Shown here one piece after another: positions 4,745-38,923 of a DNA stretch of 42,311 bases. A program made the position numbers and the translations under genes. Positions within the stretch are counted from its first letter, which is position 1; the number at the start of each line of letters is the position of its first letter. The notes under the pieces are model-generated. The model made no database searches. It was not told the DNA's origin and worked only from the letters and a program-made list of their open reading frames with translations. The stretch comes from an uncultured Mailhella sp. GTDB taxonomy: Bacteria; Desulfobacterota; Desulfovibrionia; Desulfovibrionales; Desulfovibrionaceae. Where the stretch lies: the NCBI RefSeq assembly GCF_944324995.1, contig NZ_CALUYL010000026.1, positions 1 through 42,311 of the forward strand, written 5' to 3'.

Positions 4745-4872
4745 AAGACAGAAAGGCAGAAAAGGCAGGAAGAGAGGAAAGACAAGAAAGGCAGAAAAGA
4801 CAGGAAAGGCATGCGGGGGAAATAATTCCCCCCGCGCCCCCCTGTTTCCGCCGACGGCTTCGCCATCGGCGG
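4745..4872. repeat. Dispersed repeat: purine tract, AT palindrome and hairpin
   Basis: A (GAAAGGCAGAAAAGGCAGG)-type purine tract at 4745-4810 is followed by the palindrome GGGGGAAATAATTCCCCCC (about 4815-4833), a C-rich run, and a hairpin CCGCCGACGGC-ttc-GCCATCGGCGG (4848-4872). The same arrangement recurs on the opposite strand at about 38088-38160, and its central palindrome recurs three times at 13.6-14.0 kb and once, degenerate, near 37795. No coding function is evident. The remaining sequence from 4873 to 5039 changes to AT-rich and holds no visible gene. Confidence 0.7.
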
Positions 4873-9634: not shown

Positions 9635-10143
9635 TCTTCCGCAGAACGCGTTGCGCGCGGCTCCATGCGCGGAGCCGGATCGGAACAGCCGACGGCCTCT
9701 GCGCCCGCCGCCCCGCTTGCGGAAGCCGTGTTCTGGCGAAGGCTCCCGGACGCGTTTCGACAGGCCGTGCGCGGAGCGCTTCCGACCGGAGACGCAGGAC
9801 GCGCAGAAACATGTCTTCCTGCCGCCGCTCCCGGGCGCGACGACGAACCGCGCGCCCGAACGCCGAAGAGTTGCGCCACGTTCAGCGATTCCGCGCCGAC
9901 GGGCAGCGCGTCGAGCAGCGCGTTGGCCCACACGTCTTCGGCTTCCGAGGCGTCGGCGGGGCCCCGCGCCCACGGATCTTCCATCGGACGCAGATGATCT
10001 CTGGCGTCCCGAAGCTCGGCGCGCAGCGCCCGACGCGTTGCATTCTGCCCCAGACGCCGACAGCGTTCGCTGCAAAACAGACGCCGCGCATTGGTCGATT
10101 CAAACCAGTTTCCGCATTCCTCAAACGCACACTTTTTCAACAT
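9613..10143 (-). CDS. FCS-type zinc-finger protein, phage-associated
   Basis: A 176-residue protein. The first 30 residues hold a compact treble-clef finger: Cys5-x4-Cys10, then Phe-Cys24-Ser-x2-Cys28 in RRLFCSERCRR, a pattern of small DNA/RNA-binding zinc modules found in phage and CGNR-like proteins. Residues 30-90 are charged and helical; the C-terminal half is Ala/Ser/Arg-rich, low complexity and probably disordered. AAGGAG sits six bases ahead of the ATG at 10141-10143, which supports translation. It lies downstream of the replication genes on the same strand, 584 bp away. The finger is clear; function is unknown. Confidence 0.65.
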   Translation of the reverse strand: MLKKCAFEECGNWFESTNARRLFCSERCRRLGQNATRRALRAELRDARDHLRPMEDPWARGPADASEAEDVWANALLDALPVGAESLNVAQLFGVRARGSSSRPGAAAGRHVSARPASPVGSAPRTACRNASGSLRQNTASASGAAGAEAVGCSDPAPRMEPRATRSAEDQLFPSA

Positions 10144-10726: not shown

Positions 10727-11326
10727 TCACGTTTCCCCCTTCCCCGGCGTCGCCTTCTTTTTTCCGCCGTCCAGCCTGCGGCGCAAAAGCGACGTCGTGA
10801 GACGCACCGGGCCGCGATCCAGTCCGGCCACGGCCTCCGCTCCCAGCGACAGCACATCCTCTCTCCCCGCCGCCTCCCGCCACGCCGACAGAAATTCCCG
10901 ACGCTTCCAGGAAAGATCCTCTTCCTTCCAGCGGCACACCCGTTCCCATCCCCCGAGCTGCCGCACCACGAATTCCGTCGTCGGATGCAGTTTCGGCGTC
11001 CGCCAGAATCCGCACGAACGCACTTGATCCAGCAGTCTGCCCCATTCCGCTTCCGCCTGAAGCGCAAGATTCCTCTCCCCGCGCACCGTGCCCGTCCGGG
11101 CGTCGAGCTCCCGCTGAATCAGCGCAAACGGCGGCAGACTCCCAAACCGCACCGATTCAAATCCGCAGCCCCGCACCACCGACAACACCGCACTTCGACA
11201 ATCCTCCACGCTGTACGCCGACATCAGCACCAGCCACAACGTCGCGGTATCCTCATCGAGCTCCGCGCTGTAATTCGAGGCAAGCATCCGTATCAACCGC
11301 ATTTTTTCTTCCGCATCCCTGTTCAC
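10727..11326 (-). CDS. Phage helicase-loader-like replication protein (DUF6475-like)
   Basis: A 199-residue protein translated directly after the replisome-organizer-like gene (4-bp ATGA overlap). Residues 1-70 form a helical domain (LRMLASNYSAELDEDTATLWLVLMSAYSVEDCRSAVL-type pattern ending in a Pro-containing FGSLPPFALIQREL). The middle reads WGRLLDQVRSCG...TTEFVVRQLGGWERVCRWKEEDLSWKRREFLSAW, the layout of phage replication proteins that follow a DnaD/O-like initiator and load the DnaB-type helicase. The last 25 residues are basic. It has no Walker motif, so it is not an AAA+ loader. Assignment rests on recall of the family pattern and on gene order. Confidence 0.6.
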   Translation of the reverse strand: MNRDAEEKMRLIRMLASNYSAELDEDTATLWLVLMSAYSVEDCRSAVLSVVRGCGFESVRFGSLPPFALIQRELDARTGTVRGERNLALQAEAEWGRLLDQVRSCGFWRTPKLHPTTEFVVRQLGGWERVCRWKEEDLSWKRREFLSAWREAAGREDVLSLGAEAVAGLDRGPVRLTTSLLRRRLDGGKKKATPGKGET

Positions 11327-13596: not shown

Positions 13597-14065
13597 GGGC
13601 TGATGTTTTGGTATGCGGGGCTCCGCCCCACGCCCCGCCGGGGGAAATAATTTCCCCCGAACCCCCTTGTTTTATCTGGAGTAGATGCCGAAAGGCGGGC
13701 AGAAGAAGGGGCGTCGGGTTCCCGATGCAGCGTCCGCTTCCGGGCAGCGCGGGGCCGTTTTGACGGCGCTGGCTGATGTTTGGTATGCGGGGCTCCGCCC
13801 CACACCCCGCCGGGGGAAATAATTTCCCCCGAACCCCCTTGTTTTGTCTGGAGTGGATGCCCAAAGGCGGCAGAGGAAGGGGCGTCGGGTTCCCGATGCA
13901 GCGCCCGATTCCGGGCAGCGCGGGGCCGGTTTGGCCGCGCGGGCTGATGTTTTGGTATGCGGGGCTCCGCCCCACGCCCCGTCGGGGGAAATAATTTCCC
14001 CCGATCCCCCTTGTTTTGTCTGGAGTGGATGCCGAAAAGCGGGCAGAGGAAGGGGCGTCGGGTTC
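13597..14065. repeat. Three tandem copies of a 172-bp repeat
   Basis: Copies begin at about 13600, 13773 and 13944 (periods 173 and 171; the third is incomplete) with CTGATGTTTTGGTATGCGGG. Each contains the small hairpin GGGGC-tcc-GCCCC, the perfect 19-bp palindrome GGGGGAAATAATTTCCCCC (13640-13658, 13812-13830, 13984-14002), the word CTTGTTTT(A/G)TCTGGAGT and a block ending near GGGGCGTCGGGTTC. Differences between copies are few, so the duplication is recent or maintained. The palindrome is shared with the elements near 4.8, 37.8 and 38.1 kb. Long frames through it on the minus strand are repeat translations, not a gene. Confidence 0.85.
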
Positions 14066-32274: not shown

Positions 32275-33525
32275 ATGAAAAACGTTTCCTGCAAACAAGG
32301 CTCTCTTCTGGATATGCCGCCACTTGAAAAAAAGACTCCTCCCCTGCCCGACATGAAAAAACGAATGAGCAAACTGGAAAGACTCATAGAAGAGCTCTGC
32401 CCTAACGGGGTGGAGTATAAAACAATAGATGACTGTATCAAAAAGATTGATAATATAAAATGGAAAAATGAAGAGTCTCTATTTCAATATATAGATTTGT
32501 CTTCGGTTGACAGGGAGACACATAAAATTATTGAAACCACAGAAATAAATAAAGATAGTGCTCCAAGCAGAGCCCAGCAGATAGTTAAATCTGGAGATAT
32601 TCTATTCGGTACGACACGACCACTTTTAAAAAGATATTGTCAAATTGATGAGACTTATCACAATCAGATTTGCAGCACAGGATTCTGTGTTCTTCGTCCT
32701 GATCTTTCTATAATAAATGCAAGATGGTTATATCATATAGTTTCTTCATTCACTTTTATGGACTATGTTGAAAAACATCAGCAAGGAGCAAGCTATCCAT
32801 CAATATCTGATTCTGATATAAAGAAATATAAAATTCCCGTTCCTCCTCTTCCTGTTCAGAAAGAAATTGTGATGATACTGGATATATTTTCAGAACTCAT
32901 TTCTGAACTTAATTTAGAGCTAAACAAAAGGAAGAGTCAATATAAATATTACATCAATAAATTGCTTACTTTTTCACAGCCGATTCCATTTGAACATTTA
33001 AAAGAACATATTATACTCAGAGACAATGAGAGAAAACCAGTAACAAAGAAAGATCGAATTTCAGGATGTTATCCTTATTATGGAGCAAATGGTATACAAG
33101 ATTATGTTGGAAATTTTATCTTTGATGGAACATTTTTATTGGTAGGAGAAGATGGAAGCGTTATTACAGAAAATGGAGCTCCAATATTAAATTGGGCAGT
33201 TGGTAAAATTTGGGTAAATAACCATGCACATATTTTAAGTGAAAAAAAAGGAACACTACTAAGATATCTTTATTATGCACTACAATGTGTAAATATCAGC
33301 TCTGTAGTAAGAGGTACTCCTCCAAAACTAAACCAACAAAATCTTAATAATATTAAGATTCCCGTTCCTCCCCTTGAAGAACAGAAACGCATCGTCTCCA
33401 TTCTCGACCGCTTCGACACTCTGTGCAACGATCTCTCCAGCGGTCTGCCCGCCGAAATAGAGGCCAGAAAAAAACAATACGAATACTATCGCGACAAGCT
33501 TCTTACCTTCAAGGAGGCAAAATGA
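32275..33525 (+). CDS. hsdS: Type I restriction-modification specificity subunit
   Basis: HsdS reads the bipartite DNA target for methylation and cutting. The 416-residue protein has two target-recognition domains, each ending in a conserved spacer: IPVPPLPVQKEIVMILDIF...KYYINKLLTF and IPVPPLEEQKRIVSILDRF...EYYRDKLLTF. The sequence MSKLERLIEELCPNGVEYK is the usual start, so the first 30 residues may be an extension and an ATG at 32365 is an alternative. DNA coding both recognition domains (about 32410-33360) is AT-rich whereas the ends are GC-rich like hsdM and hsdR, a mosaic pattern expected from domain shuffling. The gap to fic is 3 bp; the overlap with hsdR is 4 bp. Confidence 0.95.
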   Translation: MKNVSCKQGSLLDMPPLEKKTPPLPDMKKRMSKLERLIEELCPNGVEYKTIDDCIKKIDNIKWKNEESLFQYIDLSSVDRETHKIIETTEINKDSAPSRAQQIVKSGDILFGTTRPLLKRYCQIDETYHNQICSTGFCVLRPDLSIINARWLYHIVSSFTFMDYVEKHQQGASYPSISDSDIKKYKIPVPPLPVQKEIVMILDIFSELISELNLELNKRKSQYKYYINKLLTFSQPIPFEHLKEHIILRDNERKPVTKKDRISGCYPYYGANGIQDYVGNFIFDGTFLLVGEDGSVITENGAPILNWAVGKIWVNNHAHILSEKKGTLLRYLYYALQCVNISSVVRGTPPKLNQQNLNNIKIPVPPLEEQKRIVSILDRFDTLCNDLSSGLPAEIEARKKQYEYYRDKLLTFKEAK

Positions 33526-36500
33526 CCGGCTTCAACATGGTGGCCCAGTGCCCGGAAAGCACCGTGGTGGCCGCATACACACCTTCCGACGTGCGCTCCG
33601 ACGCCTACCAGAGCGAAGCGGCGCTGGAAAAAGAATTCATCCGGCAGCTCTGCTCGCAGGGGTACGAGTATCTCCCTCTGCACGAGGAAAAAACGCTGGT
33701 CGAGAATCTGCGCAGGCAGCTCGAACTTCTGAACAACTTCCGTTTTTCCGATGAGGAATGGACGCGCTTTTTTCATCAGCAGCTTGCCAACAAGCAGGAC
33801 GGCATTGAGGAAAAAACCAGGCGCATGCAGGAAGACAGCATCCTGAACCTTATCCGCGACGACGGCAGCACCAAAAACATCACCCTCATCGACAAGAAAA
33901 ATATCCACAACAACCGCCTTCAGGTCATCAATCAGTATGAGGAGCACGGCGGCACTCACGACACCCGGTACGACGTCACCATTCTGGTCAACGGCTTTCC
34001 CCTCGTGCATGTGGAACTCAAGCGGCGCGGCGTGGCCATACGCGAGGCCTTCAATCAGATAAAACGCTATCAGCGCGACAGCTTCTGGGCGTCCGGCGGA
34101 CTCTACGAGTATGTGCAGATATTCGTCATTTCCAACGGAACCCACACCAAATACTATTCCAACACCACGCGCGAATCCCACATCAGGGAGCAGAGCTCCG
34201 GGGGCAGAAGAAAAAGCAAAAAGACCAGCAACAGCTTTGAATTCACCTCGTTCTGGGCCGACGGCAACAACAAGCCCATCCCCGACCTCGTGGACTTCAC
34301 CAAAACCTTTTTATCAAAACACACCCTGCTGAACATTCTCACGCGCTTTTGCGTGTTCACCTCGGAAAAGCTCCTTCTCGTCATGCGTCCGTACCAGATC
34401 ACCGCAACGGAACGCATCCTTTCCCGCATAGAAATTTCCAGCAACTACCACAAGGAAGGCTCCCTCGATGCCGGTGGCTACATCTGGCACACCACGGGCA
34501 GCGGAAAAACGCTCACCTCGTTCAAAACCGCCCAGCTTGCCAGCCGTCTCCCCTGCATCGACAAGGTGCTCTTTGTGGTCGATCGCAGGGATCTGGACTA
34601 CCAGACCATGCAGGAATACGAAAAATTCCAGAAGGGAGCCGCCAACAGCAATACCTCCACAAAAGTACTGCAAAAACAGCTCGAAGACTCCGAATCGAAC
34701 ATCATCATCACCACGATTCAGAAGCTGGACACCTTCGTCAGCCGCAATCCAAAACACGACGTCTATAAAAAACACGTCGTCATCATCTTCGACGAGTGTC
34801 ACCGTTCCCAGTTCGGCGACATGCATCTGAAAATAGTCCATGCCTTCAGGAAATATCACATCTTCGGCTTCACCGGCACGCCCATCTTTGCCCAGAACGC
34901 CGGAAGCGGCGGCAATCTGCGACTCAAAACCACGCCGCAGGCCTTCGGCGATCAGCTCCACACCTACACCATCGTGGACGCCATCAACGACGGCAACGTT
35001 CTGCCCTTCCGCATCGACTACGTGAACACCATAAAAATGGCCGACGACGTTCGCGATGAACAGGTTCGGGCCATCAATACCGAAAAGGTTCTCAATTCCC
35101 CCGAGCGCGTCAGCGAAATAGTACGCTACATTCTCGATCACTTCGATCAGAAAACCAAGCGAAGCAGCTTTTATACCCTCAAAGGGCAGCGCGTGGCCGG
35201 GTTCAACTCCATTCTTGCCGTGAGTTCCATTCCCATGGCCATGAAGTATTATGCGGAGTTCAAACGGCAGCTCGAAGAACGCAAGAAGCAGCTCACCATA
35301 GCCACCATTTTCAGTTACGGAGCCAATGAAGACGCGCCGGAAGACTCGCTCGGCGACGAAAGCTTCAATACGGAAGACCTCGACCAGACCTCGCGCGACT
35401 TTCTCGACGACGCCATCAAAGACTACAATGCCGTCTTCCATACCAACTTCGATACGTCGTCCGACAAGTTCTACAATTTCTACAAAGACCTTTCGCTCAG
35501 GATGAAAAAACGGGAGGTCGATCTGCTCATCGTGGTGAACATGTTCCTCACCGGTTTCGACGCCACCACGCTGAACACCCTCTGGGTGGACAAAAATCTG
35601 AAAATGCACGGGCTCATTCAGGCATTTTCGCGCACCAACCGCATTCTGAATTCCGTGAAGACCTTCGGCAACATCGTCTGCTTCCGCGATCTCCAAAAGG
35701 AAACCGACGAGGCCCTCGCCCTGTTCGGCAACAAGGACGCCGGCGGCATCGTGCTGCTCAAAACCTACGACGCCTACTATCAGGGCTACGATGAAGACGG
35801 GAAACACAAGCCCGGCTACACCGAACTCATCAACGCGCTGCTCACGCGCTTTCCTCTCGGCGTCGCCATTGTCGGCGAACAGAACGAAAAGGACTTCATT
35901 TCCCTGTTCGGCGCCCTGCTCCGCCTGAAAAACATCCTCACCAGCTTCGACGAATTCGAGGGACAGGAAATCATTTCCACGCGGGATTTGCAGGACTATC
36001 AGAGCCGCTACCTCGACCTCTATCAGACATGGTCGAAGCACGAAGACGGCGAAAAGGAAGACATCAACGCCGACATCGTCTTTGAAATGGAACTCGTCCG
36101 GCAGGTGGAAATCAACATCGACTACATTCTGATGCTCATTGAAAAGTATCGAGATTCCCACTGCCGCAACAAGGAAATTCTCACCACCATCGACAAGGCC
36201 ATCGGTTCGAGCATCGAGCTGCGCAGCAAGAAAACGCTCATCGAAGAATTCATCGAGCGCATCAATGCGTCCTCCTCCGTGCAGGACGACTGGCAGAACT
36301 ATGTGCGGGAAAAGAAGGAAGCCGATCTTTCCGACATCATCGCCGAGGAAAATCTCAAGCCCGAACCTGCCGAAACGTTCGTGGACAACGCCTTCCGCGA
36401 CGGCACGCTGAAAACGACGGGAACCGACATCGACCGGATTCTTCCCCCCATGTCGCGCTTCGGCGACGACAATCGGGAATCCGTCAAAAAGCGCGTCATC

Positions 36501-36545
36501 AACAAGCTCCGGGCCTTCTTTGAAAAATACCTCGGCATAGTGTAA
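33522..36545 (+). CDS. hsdR: Type I restriction endonuclease / translocase subunit
   Basis: HsdR pulls DNA through the complex using ATP and cleaves it away from the target site. The 1007-residue protein starts at ATG 33522 (ATGA overlap with hsdS, AAGGAGG four bases upstream). The N-terminal nuclease signature is Asp151 with Glu165-Leu-Lys167 (VHVELKRRG). The helicase core has Walker A HTTGSGKT (323-330), DECH (424-427) in IIFDECHRSQFGD, FTGTPIF and the late motif QAFSRTNRI. The helical C-terminal region binds HsdM. All catalytic motifs are intact, so the system appears functional. This is the last gene of the operon. Confidence 0.97.
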   Translation: MTGFNMVAQCPESTVVAAYTPSDVRSDAYQSEAALEKEFIRQLCSQGYEYLPLHEEKTLVENLRRQLELLNNFRFSDEEWTRFFHQQLANKQDGIEEKTRRMQEDSILNLIRDDGSTKNITLIDKKNIHNNRLQVINQYEEHGGTHDTRYDVTILVNGFPLVHVELKRRGVAIREAFNQIKRYQRDSFWASGGLYEYVQIFVISNGTHTKYYSNTTRESHIREQSSGGRRKSKKTSNSFEFTSFWADGNNKPIPDLVDFTKTFLSKHTLLNILTRFCVFTSEKLLLVMRPYQITATERILSRIEISSNYHKEGSLDAGGYIWHTTGSGKTLTSFKTAQLASRLPCIDKVLFVVDRRDLDYQTMQEYEKFQKGAANSNTSTKVLQKQLEDSESNIIITTIQKLDTFVSRNPKHDVYKKHVVIIFDECHRSQFGDMHLKIVHAFRKYHIFGFTGTPIFAQNAGSGGNLRLKTTPQAFGDQLHTYTIVDAINDGNVLPFRIDYVNTIKMADDVRDEQVRAINTEKVLNSPERVSEIVRYILDHFDQKTKRSSFYTLKGQRVAGFNSILAVSSIPMAMKYYAEFKRQLEERKKQLTIATIFSYGANEDAPEDSLGDESFNTEDLDQTSRDFLDDAIKDYNAVFHTNFDTSSDKFYNFYKDLSLRMKKREVDLLIVVNMFLTGFDATTLNTLWVDKNLKMHGLIQAFSRTNRILNSVKTFGNIVCFRDLQKETDEALALFGNKDAGGIVLLKTYDAYYQGYDEDGKHKPGYTELINALLTRFPLGVAIVGEQNEKDFISLFGALLRLKNILTSFDEFEGQEIISTRDLQDYQSRYLDLYQTWSKHEDGEKEDINADIVFEMELVRQVEINIDYILMLIEKYRDSHCRNKEILTTIDKAIGSSIELRSKKTLIEEFIERINASSSVQDDWQNYVREKKEADLSDIIAEENLKPEPAETFVDNAFRDGTLKTTGTDIDRILPPMSRFGDDNRESVKKRVINKLRAFFEKYLGIV

Positions 36546-36589
36546 CCGTCTCTGTTCGTTGCATCTATTCAGCAACAGTGGAAAAGTTG

Positions 36590-36623
36590 CAGGAGCCGGA
36601 TTCCGCGCGGAGTCCGGCTTCTG
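36590..36623 (+). terminator. Hairpin after hsdR
   Basis: An interrupted stem CAG-g-AGCCGGA...TCCGGCT-t-CTG (36590-36623) with an inner CCGC/GCGG pair lies 45 bp beyond the hsdR stop codon. No T run follows, so terminator function is tentative. Confidence 0.4.
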
Positions 36624-36700
36624 CTGTCGCCCGGGGCGACATTTTCCCGCACCTGAGCAACACTGACTCCCGTCTGCTCTGGGCGAAGGCCCCACCCTCA

Positions 36701-36806
36701 CCCCGGATTTAAAACGTAAATCCCCGCAGTCTGTACGAACTGCGGGGACGCTTTTTGCTCTTCTGGCGGAGGGAGAGGGATTTGAACCCCCGGAGGTGTG
36801 ACCCTC
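36701..36806 (-). pseudogene. Truncated tRNA-Ser 3' half with its terminator (direct-repeat copy)
   Basis: This 106-bp block is nearly identical to 37112-37217. Bases 36764-36806 equal the variable arm, T arm, acceptor 3' strand and CCA of the intact tRNA-Ser; 36701-36763 repeats its downstream terminator region. Homology stops sharply at 36807, inside the tRNA just before the anticodon arm, so this copy cannot form a tRNA. It resembles the scar left by a tRNA-targeted integrative element or by an unequal duplication. It lies 219 bp beyond the type I R-M operon's last stop codon. Confidence 0.8.
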
Positions 36807-36878
36807 TGACAACAAAAATGCCCTTCTGCCCCTTAGGCACGTCTGCCCCGGATACGCTTTACTGACGCGGGACTTGCA

Positions 36879-36955
36879 CGACGGTCATTTCATTTAACGC
36901 CGGAAGTAAATTCCGGCTATTCATGACCGTCGGCCGGGCTCCTGATGTCGCCCGG
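36879..36955. repeat. Structured element copy 1 (two covarying hairpins)
   Basis: An outer stem CGACGGTCAT (36879-36888) pairs with ATGACCGTCG (36923-36932) and encloses an inner stem GCCGGAA (36899-36905) / TTCCGGC (36911-36917). A second hairpin CCGGGC (36934-36939) / GCCCGG (36950-36955) follows. The block continues with GGCCCCAGAGCGTTGAGA. Two more copies are at about 37407 and 37883. Confidence 0.8.
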
Positions 36956-37133
36956 GGCCCCAGAGCGTTGAGAGAACGGACGAGAAGAAACAGAAACGCA
37001 AAAAAAAGGCTCCGGGCGAAGGCCATTTCCAGCCCCGGCATTCTCCATTCCTTAAGAAACGACGGGAAAAGTGCGCCTTTGCCCGATGGGCACCCTTTTC
37101 CCCCTCCTACGCCCCGGATTTAAAACGTAAATC

Positions 37134-37157
37134 CCCGCAGTCTGCACGAACTGCGGG
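37134..37157 (-). terminator. Terminator of tRNA-Ser
   Basis: An 8-bp stem CCCGCAGT / ACTGCGGG with an 8-base loop lies 18 bases after the encoded CCA of the tRNA and is followed on the minus strand by GATTTACGTTTT. Confidence 0.75.
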
Positions 37158-37174
37158 AACATGTTTTGCTCTTC

Positions 37175-37262
37175 TGGCGGAGGGAGAGGGATTTGAACCC
37201 CCGGAGGTGTGACCCTCAACGGTTTTCAAGACCGCCGCAATCAGCCGCTCTGCCATCCCTCC
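37175..37262 (-). tRNA. tRNA-Ser (anticodon UGA)
   Basis: A complete 88-base class II tRNA including encoded CCA. The acceptor GGAGGGA pairs with TCCCTCC, followed by discriminator G and CCA. The anticodon stem-loop CGGTC-TTGAAAA-type reads TGA, giving serine UCN decoding. The long variable arm GAGGGTCACACCTC and the T loop TTCAAAT are present. Its 3' half and terminator are duplicated 411 bp downstream. Confidence 0.95.
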
Positions 37263-37406
37263 GGCTGAAAAATATCGGGTGACAGTGTACAGGCAAACAA
37301 CTTTGGCTGTCAAGGCGCAGCCCGGTCTGGGCGCGGGAGCAAAAACGCCCGGGTACCGCCATCACCCATCAGCTCCGGGCACGCTGTACGGCCTGCATCG
37401 TATACA

Positions 37407-37500
37407 CGACGGGCATTGCGTTTAACGGCGGGAGTGAATACCGGCTGATTATGCCCGTCGGCGCGACCGTCTGAAGACAGGTCGCGGGCCCCAGTGCGTT
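37407..37500. repeat. Structured element copy 2 (compensatory stem changes)
   Basis: The outer stem is CGACGGGCAT (37407-37416) with ATGCCCGTCG (37451-37460): the base that differs from copy 1 is changed on both arms. The second hairpin is CGCGACC (37462-37468) / GGTCGCG (37480-37486), entirely different in sequence from copies 1 and 3 yet still paired. The inner stem is weaker here, with two mismatches. It ends in GGGCCCCAGTGCGTTGA. Confidence 0.8.
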
Positions 37501-37576
37501 GAAAGTGTGTTTTCCTGTTTACCGTTGGGCACTGCCCTCAGTGTTCCCCCAAAAAATCTGGAAATCCCTTCCTTAC

Positions 37577-37780
37577 TCACGACTGTCCGGCGCAGGCCGG
37601 ACAGGAGTCGGCCACCGCAGGTGGGCGCAGCAGCGCACACCTGCACTGAGTACGCAGACCGAACTGCGCCTGCCAAGCACTCCGGCATCCGCAGTTCCTG
37701 CCTTTCCAAACGCCCGCCCGGATTCGGCAAGTCATCCTGCATCCGCCCTCCCACCCGCCGAACGGCGCAGCCTTCGGCGG
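37577..37780. other. GC-rich spacer with a small hairpin, no gene seen
   Basis: TGTCCGG-cgcagg-CCGGACA forms a 7-bp hairpin near 37585-37604. The rest has no supported coding sequence. A phrase near 37665-37700 (GCCTGCCAAGC...CCGGCATCCG) loosely resembles one near 10281-10310. Confidence 0.35.
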
Positions 37781-37783
37781 AAT

Positions 37784-37809
37784 CAGGGGGGCGCGGGGGG
37801 AATTATTTC
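37784..37809. repeat. Dispersed palindromic repeat, degenerate copy
   Basis: CAGGGGGGCGCGGGGGGAATTATTTC resembles the left part of the 38088-38110 copy but loses the C-rich right arm. A hairpin-like GCCGAACGGC...GCCTTCGGCGG precedes it, echoing the arrangement at 4.85 kb. Confidence 0.55.
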
Positions 37810-37882
37810 TGACCTTGCTCCCTCCCGAAGAACACGCAGCTCCGTTTGCGCAAGACACGCTGTACGGCTTGCATCGCTTGCA

Positions 37883-37970
37883 CGACGGCGGCTGCGCTTA
37901 ACGCCGGAAGTGAATTCCGGCTGCTTGCCTGCCGTCGGCCGGGCTCCTGACGTCGCCCGGGGCCCCAGAG
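37883..37970. repeat. Structured element copy 3
   Basis: The outer stem CGACGGC (37883-37889) pairs with GCCGTCG (37931-37937), again differing from copies 1 and 2 on both arms. The inner stem GCCGGAA (37903-37909) / TTCCGGC (37915-37921) and the second hairpin CCGGGC (37939-37944) / GCCCGG (37955-37960) are perfect. The left flank CACGCTGTACGGCTTGCATCG is shared with copy 2 and partly with a relic near 9260. Confidence 0.8.
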
Positions 37971-38087
37971 CTTCGAGAAACGGCCTTCCGGCGGCACTCC
38001 CCCCCTCGCCCTTTGCTTCGGGCATAATCTTCCCGTTCACCCTGTCCTGCCGAAGCAGCGTCAGCTGCGAGGCAGAATCAGGGGGGT

Positions 38088-38160
38088 GCGGGGGGAATTA
38101 TTTCCCCCGCATGCCTTTCCTGCCTTTTCTGCCTTTCCTCTCTTCCTGCCTTTCCTGCGT
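38088..38160. repeat. Dispersed repeat: palindrome plus pyrimidine tract
   Basis: The palindrome GCGGGGGGAATTATTTCCCC continues into a tract of TGCCTTTCCTGCCTTTTC-type units. It is the reverse complement of the 4745-4834 copy, including the purine/pyrimidine arm, although the two lie 33 kb apart. Confidence 0.75.
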
Positions 38161-38166
38161 TTTCCA

Positions 38167-38202
38167 CAAAAAAAGCCCCGCTTCGGGATGGGGAAGCGGG
38201 GC
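38167..38202 (-). terminator. Rho-independent terminator of the YbjQ-family gene
   Basis: On the minus strand a 10-bp perfect stem GCCCCGCTTC / GAAGCGGGGC with an 8-base loop is followed by seven or eight T. It starts about 20 bases after the stop codon of the gene at 38222. Confidence 0.92.
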
Positions 38203-38221
38203 GGGGATCATAGGGTACGGC

Positions 38222-38923
38222 CTAGAGATAGGGGGGGATATGGAACTTTTCGTCCTTGGCGGGGGCGAGTTCGGAGTAGCTTTCGGACGTGCCGGCCACG
38301 ATGGGCAGGCGTTCGGCCTTGAGGTTGTGGTATTCGACGGAGAGTTCGCGCATTTTGGTGAAGTCGGGCATGTTGACGGCGCCGTGTTCGAGCGCCGTGC
38401 CCACGCAGGACACGAGCAGCAGGCCGGTGGAGCCGCTCTTCACTTCGAGGCGGATGCCGGAAATCACGTTGGCGCCCATTTCGATGGCCTGCATTTTGGC
38501 CACGTTGATGGCGCGGCGTTCGGCCTGACGTATCTTATTAAGGTAGTCTTCGGATTCGCCGCCGAAAAAGTCGGTGAGCACGTTGGCCAGGCCCGTGAAG
38601 GCGCCCACGCCGATGACCGCGTAGCCCGACACCACGCCCTTGATGCCGCCGGACCAGGTTTCGGGATGCGGCGTGGTGAACACCTGGATTTCCTGAAGCA
38701 CCTTTTCCTGATATTCCTTGAGTTCCGCCTTGAGATCGCCGAGCCGTTCCTCGCGCACGAGAGAAAGTTCCTTTACCTTGTCCATGGCGCAGGACATGCA
38801 CATGTCCTCGGCGTCGATATCGAACCGTGCGAAGTCTGCGATGGTTTCCTTGCACAGATGCCGGATGCCTCCGCGCTTGCTGAATTTTCTGCCACAAATA
38901 CGACAATCCAAGGCCTGCTGCAT
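38222..38923 (-). CDS. YbjQ/UPF0145-family protein with N-terminal zinc ribbon
   Basis: A 233-residue protein. Residues 1-50 carry Cys7-x2-Cys10 (CRICGRKF), His22/Cys24 and Cys42-x2-Cys45 (MCMSC), suggesting one zinc site. Residues 85-185 are a YbjQ-like domain (GVVSGYAVIGVGAFTGLANVLTDFFGG, INVAKMQAIEMGANVISGIRLEV, LLLVSCVGTAL), a family whose members assemble as pentamers and are sometimes called heavy-metal-binding. YbjQ itself is about 107 residues, so the zinc ribbon and the coiled linker (about 50-80) are additions. The last 35 residues look disordered. Function is unknown; it is transcribed alone with its own terminator. Confidence 0.85.
   Translation of the reverse strand: MQQALDCRICGRKFSKRGGIRHLCKETIADFARFDIDAEDMCMSCAMDKVKELSLVREERLGDLKAELKEYQEKVLQEIQVFTTPHPETWSGGIKGVVSGYAVIGVGAFTGLANVLTDFFGGESEDYLNKIRQAERRAINVAKMQAIEMGANVISGIRLEVKSGSTGLLLVSCVGTALEHGAVNMPDFTKMRELSVEYHNLKAERLPIVAGTSESYSELAPAKDEKFHIPPYL

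Follow-up and report, generated by a model that had tools for sequence, protein, structure and literature searches.

The window analysed here, a stretch of 42,311 nucleotides, is contig NZ_CALUYL010000026.1 (C26) of the 2.9-Mb genome (G000) of an uncultured member of the genus Mailhella in the family Desulfovibrionaceae. It carries three copies of a folded repeat of about 90 nt, recovered by direct reading, repeat search and alignment and located beside a tRNA-Ser gene (Table 1). Each copy has a stem A of about 10 bp, within which lie an asymmetric internal loop whose last letters are TTTAAC or CTTAAC, a 7-bp stem B capped by a GTGAA-type loop, and a lone T; a hairpin C followed by GGCCCCAG(A/T)GC lies downstream. 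The three copies, their stems and the two forms of hairpin C are real as described in the original prediction, which had been made from the letters of the window; the outer stem CGACGGC/GCCGTCG proposed for copy 3 is present within a stem A that is longer than had been claimed.

Table 1. Coordinates of the repeat copies and accompanying features in the window
Feature	Position	Strand	Sequence or remark
Copy 1	36879..36968	+	stem A 36879-36888/36923-36932, CGACGGTCAT/ATGACCGTCG
Copy 1, internal loop	up to 36898	+	..TTTAAC
Copy 1, stem B	36899-36905/36911-36917	+	GCCGGAA-GTAAA-TTCCGGC
Copy 1, hairpin C	36934-36939/36950-36955	+	CCGGGC/GCCCGG, then GGCCCCAGAGC
tRNA-Ser(TGA)	37175..37262	-	between copies 1 and 2; final 43 bases repeated at 36764-36806
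Leader of copy 2, conserved	37380..37406	+	CACGCTGTACGGCCTGCATCGTATACA; repeat search, alignment of 45 own-genome places
Copy 2	37407..37499	+	stem A 37407-37416/37451-37460, CGACGGGCAT/ATGCCCGTCG
Copy 2, stem B	37427-37433/37439-37445	+	GGCGGGA-GTGAA-TACCGGC, two non-pairs
Copy 2, hairpin C, alternative form	37462-37468/37480-37486	+	CGCGACC/GGTCGCG
Extragenic module before copy 3, boundary of tandem units	37776..37809	+	GGCGGAATCAGGGGGGCGCGGGGGGAATTATTTC; repeat search, tandem units of G041, site comparison
Leader of copy 3, conserved	37856..37882	+	CACGCTGTACGGCTTGCATCGCTTGCA; repeat search, same 45-place alignment
Copy 3	37883..37973	+	stem A 37883-37892/37927-37937, CGACGGCGGC/GC-C-TGCCGTCG, one bulged base
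Copy 3, stem B	37903-37909/37915-37921	+	GCCGGAA/TTCCGGC, loop GTGAA
Copy 3, hairpin C	37939-37944/37955-37960	+	CCGGGC/GCCCGG
End module behind copy 3	38041..38108	+	hairpin CCTGCCGAAGCAGCG..GCTGCGAGGCAG, then AATCAGGGGGGTGCGGGGGGAATTATTTCCCCC

Fold and covariation of the core

The conserved core spans about 55 nt. Its elements are stem A, a YTTRAC internal loop opposite a single T, stem B (7 bp) and, closed by an A-T pair, an RTRAA pentaloop; hairpin C usually stands behind it. A 25-letter pattern of the core, with up to three mismatches allowed, occurs three times in the window and not once in 100 shuffles. Folded singly and compared with shuffled sequences, copies 1 to 3 gave z scores of -2.5, -1.2 and -0.9 on the plus strand and of -3.1, -1.8 and -0.9 on the minus strand. 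As these folds are just mildly better than shuffles, the significance of the structure rests on comparison and not on any single fold.

Among 40 copies from the genome of the window, both-sided change was found in 12 of 28 pairs, with a covariation score of 0.252 against 0.119 ± 0.008 after shuffling. An alignment of 51 Mailhella rows gave both-sided change in 20 of 23 pairs, 94.6% of cells paired and a score of 0.474 (0.153 ± 0.010 shuffled, 0.033-0.065 slid), figures which carry a bias towards structure as this alignment had been fitted to the model. The alignment A7 was produced by MAFFT with no structure fitting and holds 48 rows, of which 21 are from Mailhella, 11 from other Desulfovibrionaceae and 16 from Clostridia. 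Here, 10 of the 12 tested pairs had changed on both sides over two phyla, the score was 0.428 (0.151 ± 0.014 shuffled, at most 0.104 slid) and 87.5% of the cells were paired overall, with 96.1% in stem B and 75.3% in inner stem A; the rows had been picked as model or pattern hits, which biases them to conserved letters, and stem A lies mostly outside the pattern. Invariant or nearly so in A7 are the loop letters TT-AC and T-AA, the opposing T, the A-T pair closing the pentaloop, the three stem B pairs in columns 21-39, 23-37 and 24-36 and one downstream C. To judge from the aligned letters, stem A and the remaining pairs of stem B are free in sequence; stem B is not wholly so.

The earlier claim that covariation among the copies reveals a selected structure has to be divided. 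Taken from a single genome, three copies make a weak case, and the single-contig genome G041 of the same species (3,168,613 bases) carries the other form of hairpin C at the site orthologous to copy 2, swapped as a whole block; within-species “covariation” is therefore at least partly exchange between copies. It is the comparison between genera that shows independent paired mutations, which the three copies of the window do not reveal by themselves. When Mailhella is set against other Desulfovibrionaceae and Clostridia, stems change together and loops stay, and this wider comparison supports selection on the structure; even in gut bacteria that are distantly related, the fold is kept better than the sequence.

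That hairpins are exchanged or rewritten as blocks would also be expected if template switching between hairpin arms kept them complementary without any selection, a type of correction that is established for quasi-palindromes. Such mutation mechanics, however, offer no way to maintain, over two phyla, the YTTRAC loop, which is not palindromic, the T facing it, the RTRAA loop and a constant stem B length of 7 bp; the explanation, which we hold to be very improbable, is largely refuted by the conserved loops.

Copy number and distribution

In the genome of the window, blastn finds 46 matches, one of which is a 15-base fragment. A covariance model (R1) built from 40 aligned copies, as had been suggested with the original prediction, gives 51 matches in the same genome and is positive in 15 of 19 Mailhella genomes, its own included; further structured copies do exist, and the empty search that had been named beforehand as refuting the idea did not occur. 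A broader model (R2), for which at most 17 candidates were scored per genome under strict filters, found the element at E <= 0.01 in at least 50 of 247 Desulfovibrionaceae genomes and at least 11 of 44 genera, the 50 genomes being a lower bound because of these restrictions. At E <= 0.05, the numbers of matches were 148 in G050 (150 candidates scored), 62 in G137, 44 in G255, 16 in G042, 11 in G219, 10 in G119 (Desulfovibrio sp. ZJ369), 5 in G227 and 1 in G251, with none in the Mailhella genomes G012 and G016. The thresholds for these distributions were used without decoy calibration; the fetched loci that were read display the fold.

Outside this family, a pattern scan of named genomes gave at least 93 stretches. 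Among the 80 matches listed, at least 11 loci of at least seven Clostridia genomes carry the core with a stem A that is complementary, and have hairpins nearby that are peculiar to them and in some loci AT-rich. One of these holds a 115-bp tandem array, and eight of 200 genomes sampled evenly from one Clostridia order match, the centre genome among them. Three of these eight (G331, G385 and G399) were rejected as members, the match being confined to a 22-nt hairpin resembling stem B in other dispersed repeats. Loci L367-L392 of these genomes hold many dispersed copies of this stem-B-like hairpin (GGCGGAAGTGAATTCCGCC) in an otherwise different repeat.

With the Rfam gathering cut-off, the tRNA alone passes in the window, and among five further loci analysed in E-value mode one tRNA alone reaches the cut-off. 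Identity of the element with a tRNA or another known RNA was rejected on these grounds, and the earlier statement that it matches no recognised element holds for Rfam families. No description of the family was recognised in the literature searched (subscription journals and preprints were not covered), and it is apparently undescribed so far. A 141-base piece of G050 had no match among 50,697 phage records, and the core is present in three IMG/VR stretches. In contig L405, which is predicted to be a provirus, cores lie at 1420-1474, 10048-10104 and 10853-10907; one of them has a tail tube gene on one side and the next open frame on the other, a placement that recent mobility would produce.

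Mini-transposons in relatives

The form in which the core occurs differs between genomes. The 0.8 Mb of G050 covered here contain 56 distinct near-full copies of a 128-bp element with sharp ends, 28 on each strand. The dinucleotide TA is found at the left end of 52 copies, at the right end of 51 and at both ends of 47. The flanks show no excess of 2-6-base matches, that is, no longer target duplication, with one 7-base match among the 56. Two sister elements with the same kind of ends are nested in core copies of G050, where they split CTTTTAAGACG with TA on both sides and have insides that differ from the core element. Other short elements of G050 (C1:353375, C39:266051, C39:285797 and C39:321179) share the same kind of start and have different insides; these ends therefore carry several cargos.

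In both G050 and G119, the core sits within mini-transposons with TARAGCA-type inverted ends, which are like the ends of IS630 elements of the same genomes. In G119 the likeness of one repeat end (TAGAGCATATTGCTTTTAA) to one IS end (TAGAGCATTTTGCTTTTAA) is almost letter for letter, and in G050 the likeness is weaker. All four transposases scanned from G050, G119 and G042 score above the cut-off of the IS630 model NCBIfam NF033545, and IS630 genes adjoin TARAGCA-type ends, on both sides in L408, L409 and L412 and on one side in L407, L414 and L416. The sequence of the ends indicates that the core is most likely transposon cargo in G050 and G119. Inverted ends, TA duplication (counted in G050) and an IS630 gene, which together mark an IS630-derived miniature inverted-repeat transposable element, are found in G050 and G119 but not for the Mailhella window copies, and PF13358 has no match in the three Mailhella genomes searched for IS630 (G000, G041 and G017).

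In four of 28 loci examined (L164, L165, L170 and L188, from G085, G072, G183 and G042), the element is flanked by direct repeats of 18-25 bases that consist of a site-specific palindrome or a portion of one. L172, L053 and L052 have longer direct repeats of other kinds (57, 33 and 77 bases), and most of the 28 loci have none. The exact 77-bp direct repeat of L052 (contig G007:C165) flanks the sole core copy of its genome.

Arrays in Mailhella

In G041, all 66 matches at E <= 0.01 fall at 199,041-732,032, a segment of 0.53 Mb, and 56 of them are on the plus strand (best 150 of 3128 candidates scored). Searching fetched pieces of G041, which had been picked mainly at known matches, nhmmer finds 70 copies (59 plus, 11 minus) in 35 arrays (27 plus, 8 minus) of one to four units each, and no copy in sixteen 20-kb samples outside the segment. 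A weak match outside it (G041:804281, E 0.019) is not seen by nhmmer in that piece. The tandem units measure about 293 bp, with 25 of 35 spacings at 287-297 bases. That 35 of 35 arrays lie within 17% of the chromosome has a probability of about 1e-25 under independent placement, a condition that arrays derived from each other do not satisfy. Such regional confinement, with 66 of 66 strong matches in 17% of the chromosome, is not predicted by the usual biology of repeats. The sign of the GC skew of G041, taken from 20-kb samples, changes near 0 and 1.6 Mb. The repeat segment also holds the dnaA gene of G041 (578,884-579,357, region 578344-579816), at a distance of about 1 kb from an array and away from the skew changes.

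The units are bounded by direct copies of the extragenic module and not by inverted ends. One site, C5:59339, is occupied in the genome of the window and empty in G041, the difference lying between two copies of the end module, as expected from a gain or loss by recombination between repeats. Comparisons of G000 and G041 at C24:50179 and C11:12274 were too rearranged for a clean reading of an empty site. The Mailhella arrays look immobile.

Another Mailhella species, G008, has 58-98% protein identity to G041 in the compared pieces. Nine of its pieces were fetched because they bear copies, and the genes of all nine match at 198-666 kb of G041 and are collinear with it, apart from a single flank gene whose best match is at 284 kb. 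Of the 16 copy clusters listed for G008, 12 fall in these pieces, and five of the 12 share the intergenic interval with a G041 array (705k with 199k, 884-886k with 346k, 917k with 380k, 951k with 396k, and C28:377k with 487k). The last pair is the window's own site, where the orthologue of copy 3 is G041:487164. Two more clusters are possibly shared, C28:237k by one flank and 755k with partial copies only in G041.

These comparisons also bear on the possibility that the repeat is selfish, with a fold that serves its own multiplication alone, either because a transposase or recombinase recognises the hairpin or because the fold is needed for an insertion to be tolerable; the repeat would then have no host function and the Mailhella arrays would be relics homogenised by gene conversion. 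The many near-identical copies on both strands of G050, the IS630-type ends with their TA flanks, the very uneven copy number among relatives and the copies in a predicted provirus contig, one of which adjoins a tail tube gene, are all consistent with this. IS630 transposases, however, act on terminal repeats, which gives no reason to keep an internal loop and a stem over two phyla, and the core is found with different ends in different genera. Arrays at orthologous sites of two species, with stems that differ yet mostly pair, further suggest upkeep without transposition. We regard a purely selfish repeat as a serious rival, albeit a rather unlikely one.

The confinement to one segment could also point to an element specific for that part of the chromosome. 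One protein would bind the folded core and mark or organise a 0.53-Mb stretch of one arm, so that a former transposon cargo would have become a regional site of chromosome structure, with sites and region partly conserved between species and stems rewritten by compensatory change. This proposal is speculative and, in our estimate, improbable.

Gene context

Genes were called with a home-made codon model. None of the 56 copies of G050 lies in a predicted gene, at a coding fraction of 80-84%. A coding role was rejected: long open frames cross the window copies, but none of the 35 G041 arrays and none of the G050 copies is inside a gene predicted from codon usage. Compared with the 320 G050 spacers of at least 150 bases, spacers between convergent genes are enriched among those with copies (21 of 54 vs 61 of 320, p 0.002) and divergent ones are depleted (5 of 54 vs 74 of 320, p 0.019), while the (+,+) and (-,-) classes hold 13 and 15 copies. 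The 35 arrays of G041 comprise 15 in convergent, 10 in (-,-), 6 in (+,+) and 3 in divergent spacers, and one without a predicted downstream gene. As neither orientation nor position is fixed in G041 and G050, a riboswitch or leader was rejected.

A small RNA gene or RNA element was also considered. If the units were transcribed, the hairpins could act as RNA, be it as a regulator, a protein sponge or a stabiliser of 3' ends; conserved unpaired loop letters with variable stems are typical of structured RNAs, and the enrichment between convergent genes and a minus-strand promoter-like site overlapping copy 2 (37475-37448) would suit such a role. Against it, this site is one of just two promoter-like sites in 36500-38300, both on the minus strand and the other at the tRNA; none is seen in copies 1 and 3, and the terminator-like sites listed for the same interval lie outside the cores. 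Orientation is not tied to the neighbouring genes, as the 13/15 and 6/10 counts above show, and there is no Rfam match. Nor is there a strand bias of G.T over A.C mismatches, with 12 vs 15 in 53 distinct B stems and 35 vs 41 in a looser set including two stem A pairs, hence no RNA strand signal. Taken together, we find an RNA element improbable.

Comparison with known repeat systems

RUP is a short intergenic repeat of 107 bp present in 108 copies, with TA ends and terminal repeats like those of IS630-Spn1 of the same genome, according to the parts of the source consulted (PMC2229807). The form in G050 and G119 (128 bp in G050) resembles it in TA ends and IS630-like terminal repeats. In contrast, those parts describe no folded core common to other genera for RUP (PMC2229807), and the Mailhella form has no TA or inverted ends that were found and no IS630 in the three genomes searched. 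Correia/NEMIS and ERIC repeats (about 107-155 bp) share the size range and TA ends and form stable transcript hairpins, but differ in sequence and host, and the same passages describe no conserved cross-phylum core for them (PMC2229807). The CIR of Caulobacter and Brucella is described there as having two folded arms with a structure conserved between genera, a likeness to the present fold; unlike here, where the conserved loops are YTTRAC and RTRAA, the terminal loop of CIR contains GANTC (PMC2229807).

A parallel in genomic position exists with REP/BIME repeats, which the sections seen of PMC3733652 depict as extragenic and palindromic, lying downstream of genes or between convergent genes, in clusters and as singletons. 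Extragenic hairpins between convergent genes, in clusters and singly, are found here as well, whereas a REP, in the same sections, is a single hairpin of 20-40 bp with an unpaired GTAG or CGTC tag and the present element has three stems in about 90-150 nt. Read on the reverse strand, the position of this tag holds GTAG in some copies and GCAG, GTAA, ACAG or ATAG in others; two of its bases have partners on the opposite side, with which they covary (T-A, T-G, C-G).

A linked REP-type transposase, for which the original prediction had proposed to look, was not found, and the unpaired tetranucleotide tag is not conserved; where a mobiliser can be named, it is IS630. The Y1 transposase family PF01797 has no match in G050 (148 repeats), G137 (62) and G255 (44). 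In Mailhella, 10 of 10 genomes have PF01797 matches; eight frames read by eye are IS200-like, and two that were scanned pass the IS200 cut-off and fail that of RAYT. A REP system with RAYT was rejected: a REP transposase is excluded for the three copy-rich genomes and, to judge from the eight Y1 frames read among the PF01797 matches, unlikely in Mailhella.

The motif YTTAAC presumably resembles the core of integron attC sites (RYYYAAC/GTTRRRY boxes); here it is internal, no partner box was seen and no integrase search was made.

A proposed hairpin module at gene termini

Short structured repeats of the REP, ERIC and RUP type are common, and it is a long-standing question whether the host benefits from their folds or whether these promote only the spread of the repeats themselves. 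The family described here offers a clean test, as one folded core, its loops fixed and its stems variable, is carried by different vehicles in two phyla, and an active-looking mini-transposon in two Desulfovibrionaceae relatives can be set beside immobile-looking arrays in Mailhella. It also yields a covariance model for an element that is absent from Rfam and, in some genomes, abundant (one of them has 148 matches, for 150 scored candidates).

To our mind there is about an even chance that the core is a selected hairpin module at gene ends, working in the manner of REP/BIME and spread as transposon cargo; recognition by a protein and an effect at the ends of transcription units are inferred parts of this explanation. 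The Mailhella copies would no longer transpose; recombination among tandem and dispersed copies would account for their gain, loss and homogenisation. They may be kept as a hairpin to which a host protein would bind where transcription units end, with single-stranded DNA, cruciform DNA or a transcribed hairpin as the possible working form. The role, like that of REP/BIME, could concern a boundary, termination, the RNA end or topology.

Several observations weigh against a selected hairpin module. No binding protein, transcript or phenotype is known. Four of the 19 Mailhella genomes have no match with R1, so that the genus can do without the element. G255, with its 44 matches, has neither a Y1 nor a DDE_3/IS630 transposase, and therefore IS630 does not explain all of the spread. 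Five of the 12 G008 clusters (916.6k, 948.5k, 972k, 979k and C28:336k) lack a G041 copy in the same interval, and the recurrence at orthologous positions may reflect function or else old insertions that are slowly lost. In A7, several of the seven stem B pairs hardly vary in their letters; therefore, sequence is conserved too. Finally, G.T and A.C mismatches show no strand preference, which makes DNA and RNA forms indistinguishable.

Neighbourhood of the copies

Copy 1 lies across the tRNA-Ser from copies 2 and 3, between two repeats of the tRNA end and adjoining a type I restriction system (32275-36545), and is probably part of an integrated island. The two repeats belong to a 117-bp direct repeat (36690-36806 and 37101-37217, 92%) which contains the last 43 bases of tRNA-Ser(TGA) and the subsequent hairpin and is likely an attachment-site pair. 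At the same site, G041 has two copies adjoining the same tRNA-Ser and a YbjQ-like gene. The gene adjoining this tRNA-Ser in G041 looks integrase-like by eye.

Copies 2 and 3 have their leader in common, as found by repeat search, and the module before copy 3 recurs at 38071-38104, thereby bounding this copy. A palindrome, GGGGGAATTATTTCCCCC, occurs at 4815-4832 and 38091-38108 together with a GC hairpin and runs of TTTCCTGCC. The module to which it belongs is extragenic and is also found away from arrays, for example at 4815, the arrays being embedded in it. A separate extragenic repeat family is represented at 13600-14060 by a 172-bp tandem repeat of about 2.7 units, counted by eye, with the palindrome GGGGGAAATAATTTCCCCC.

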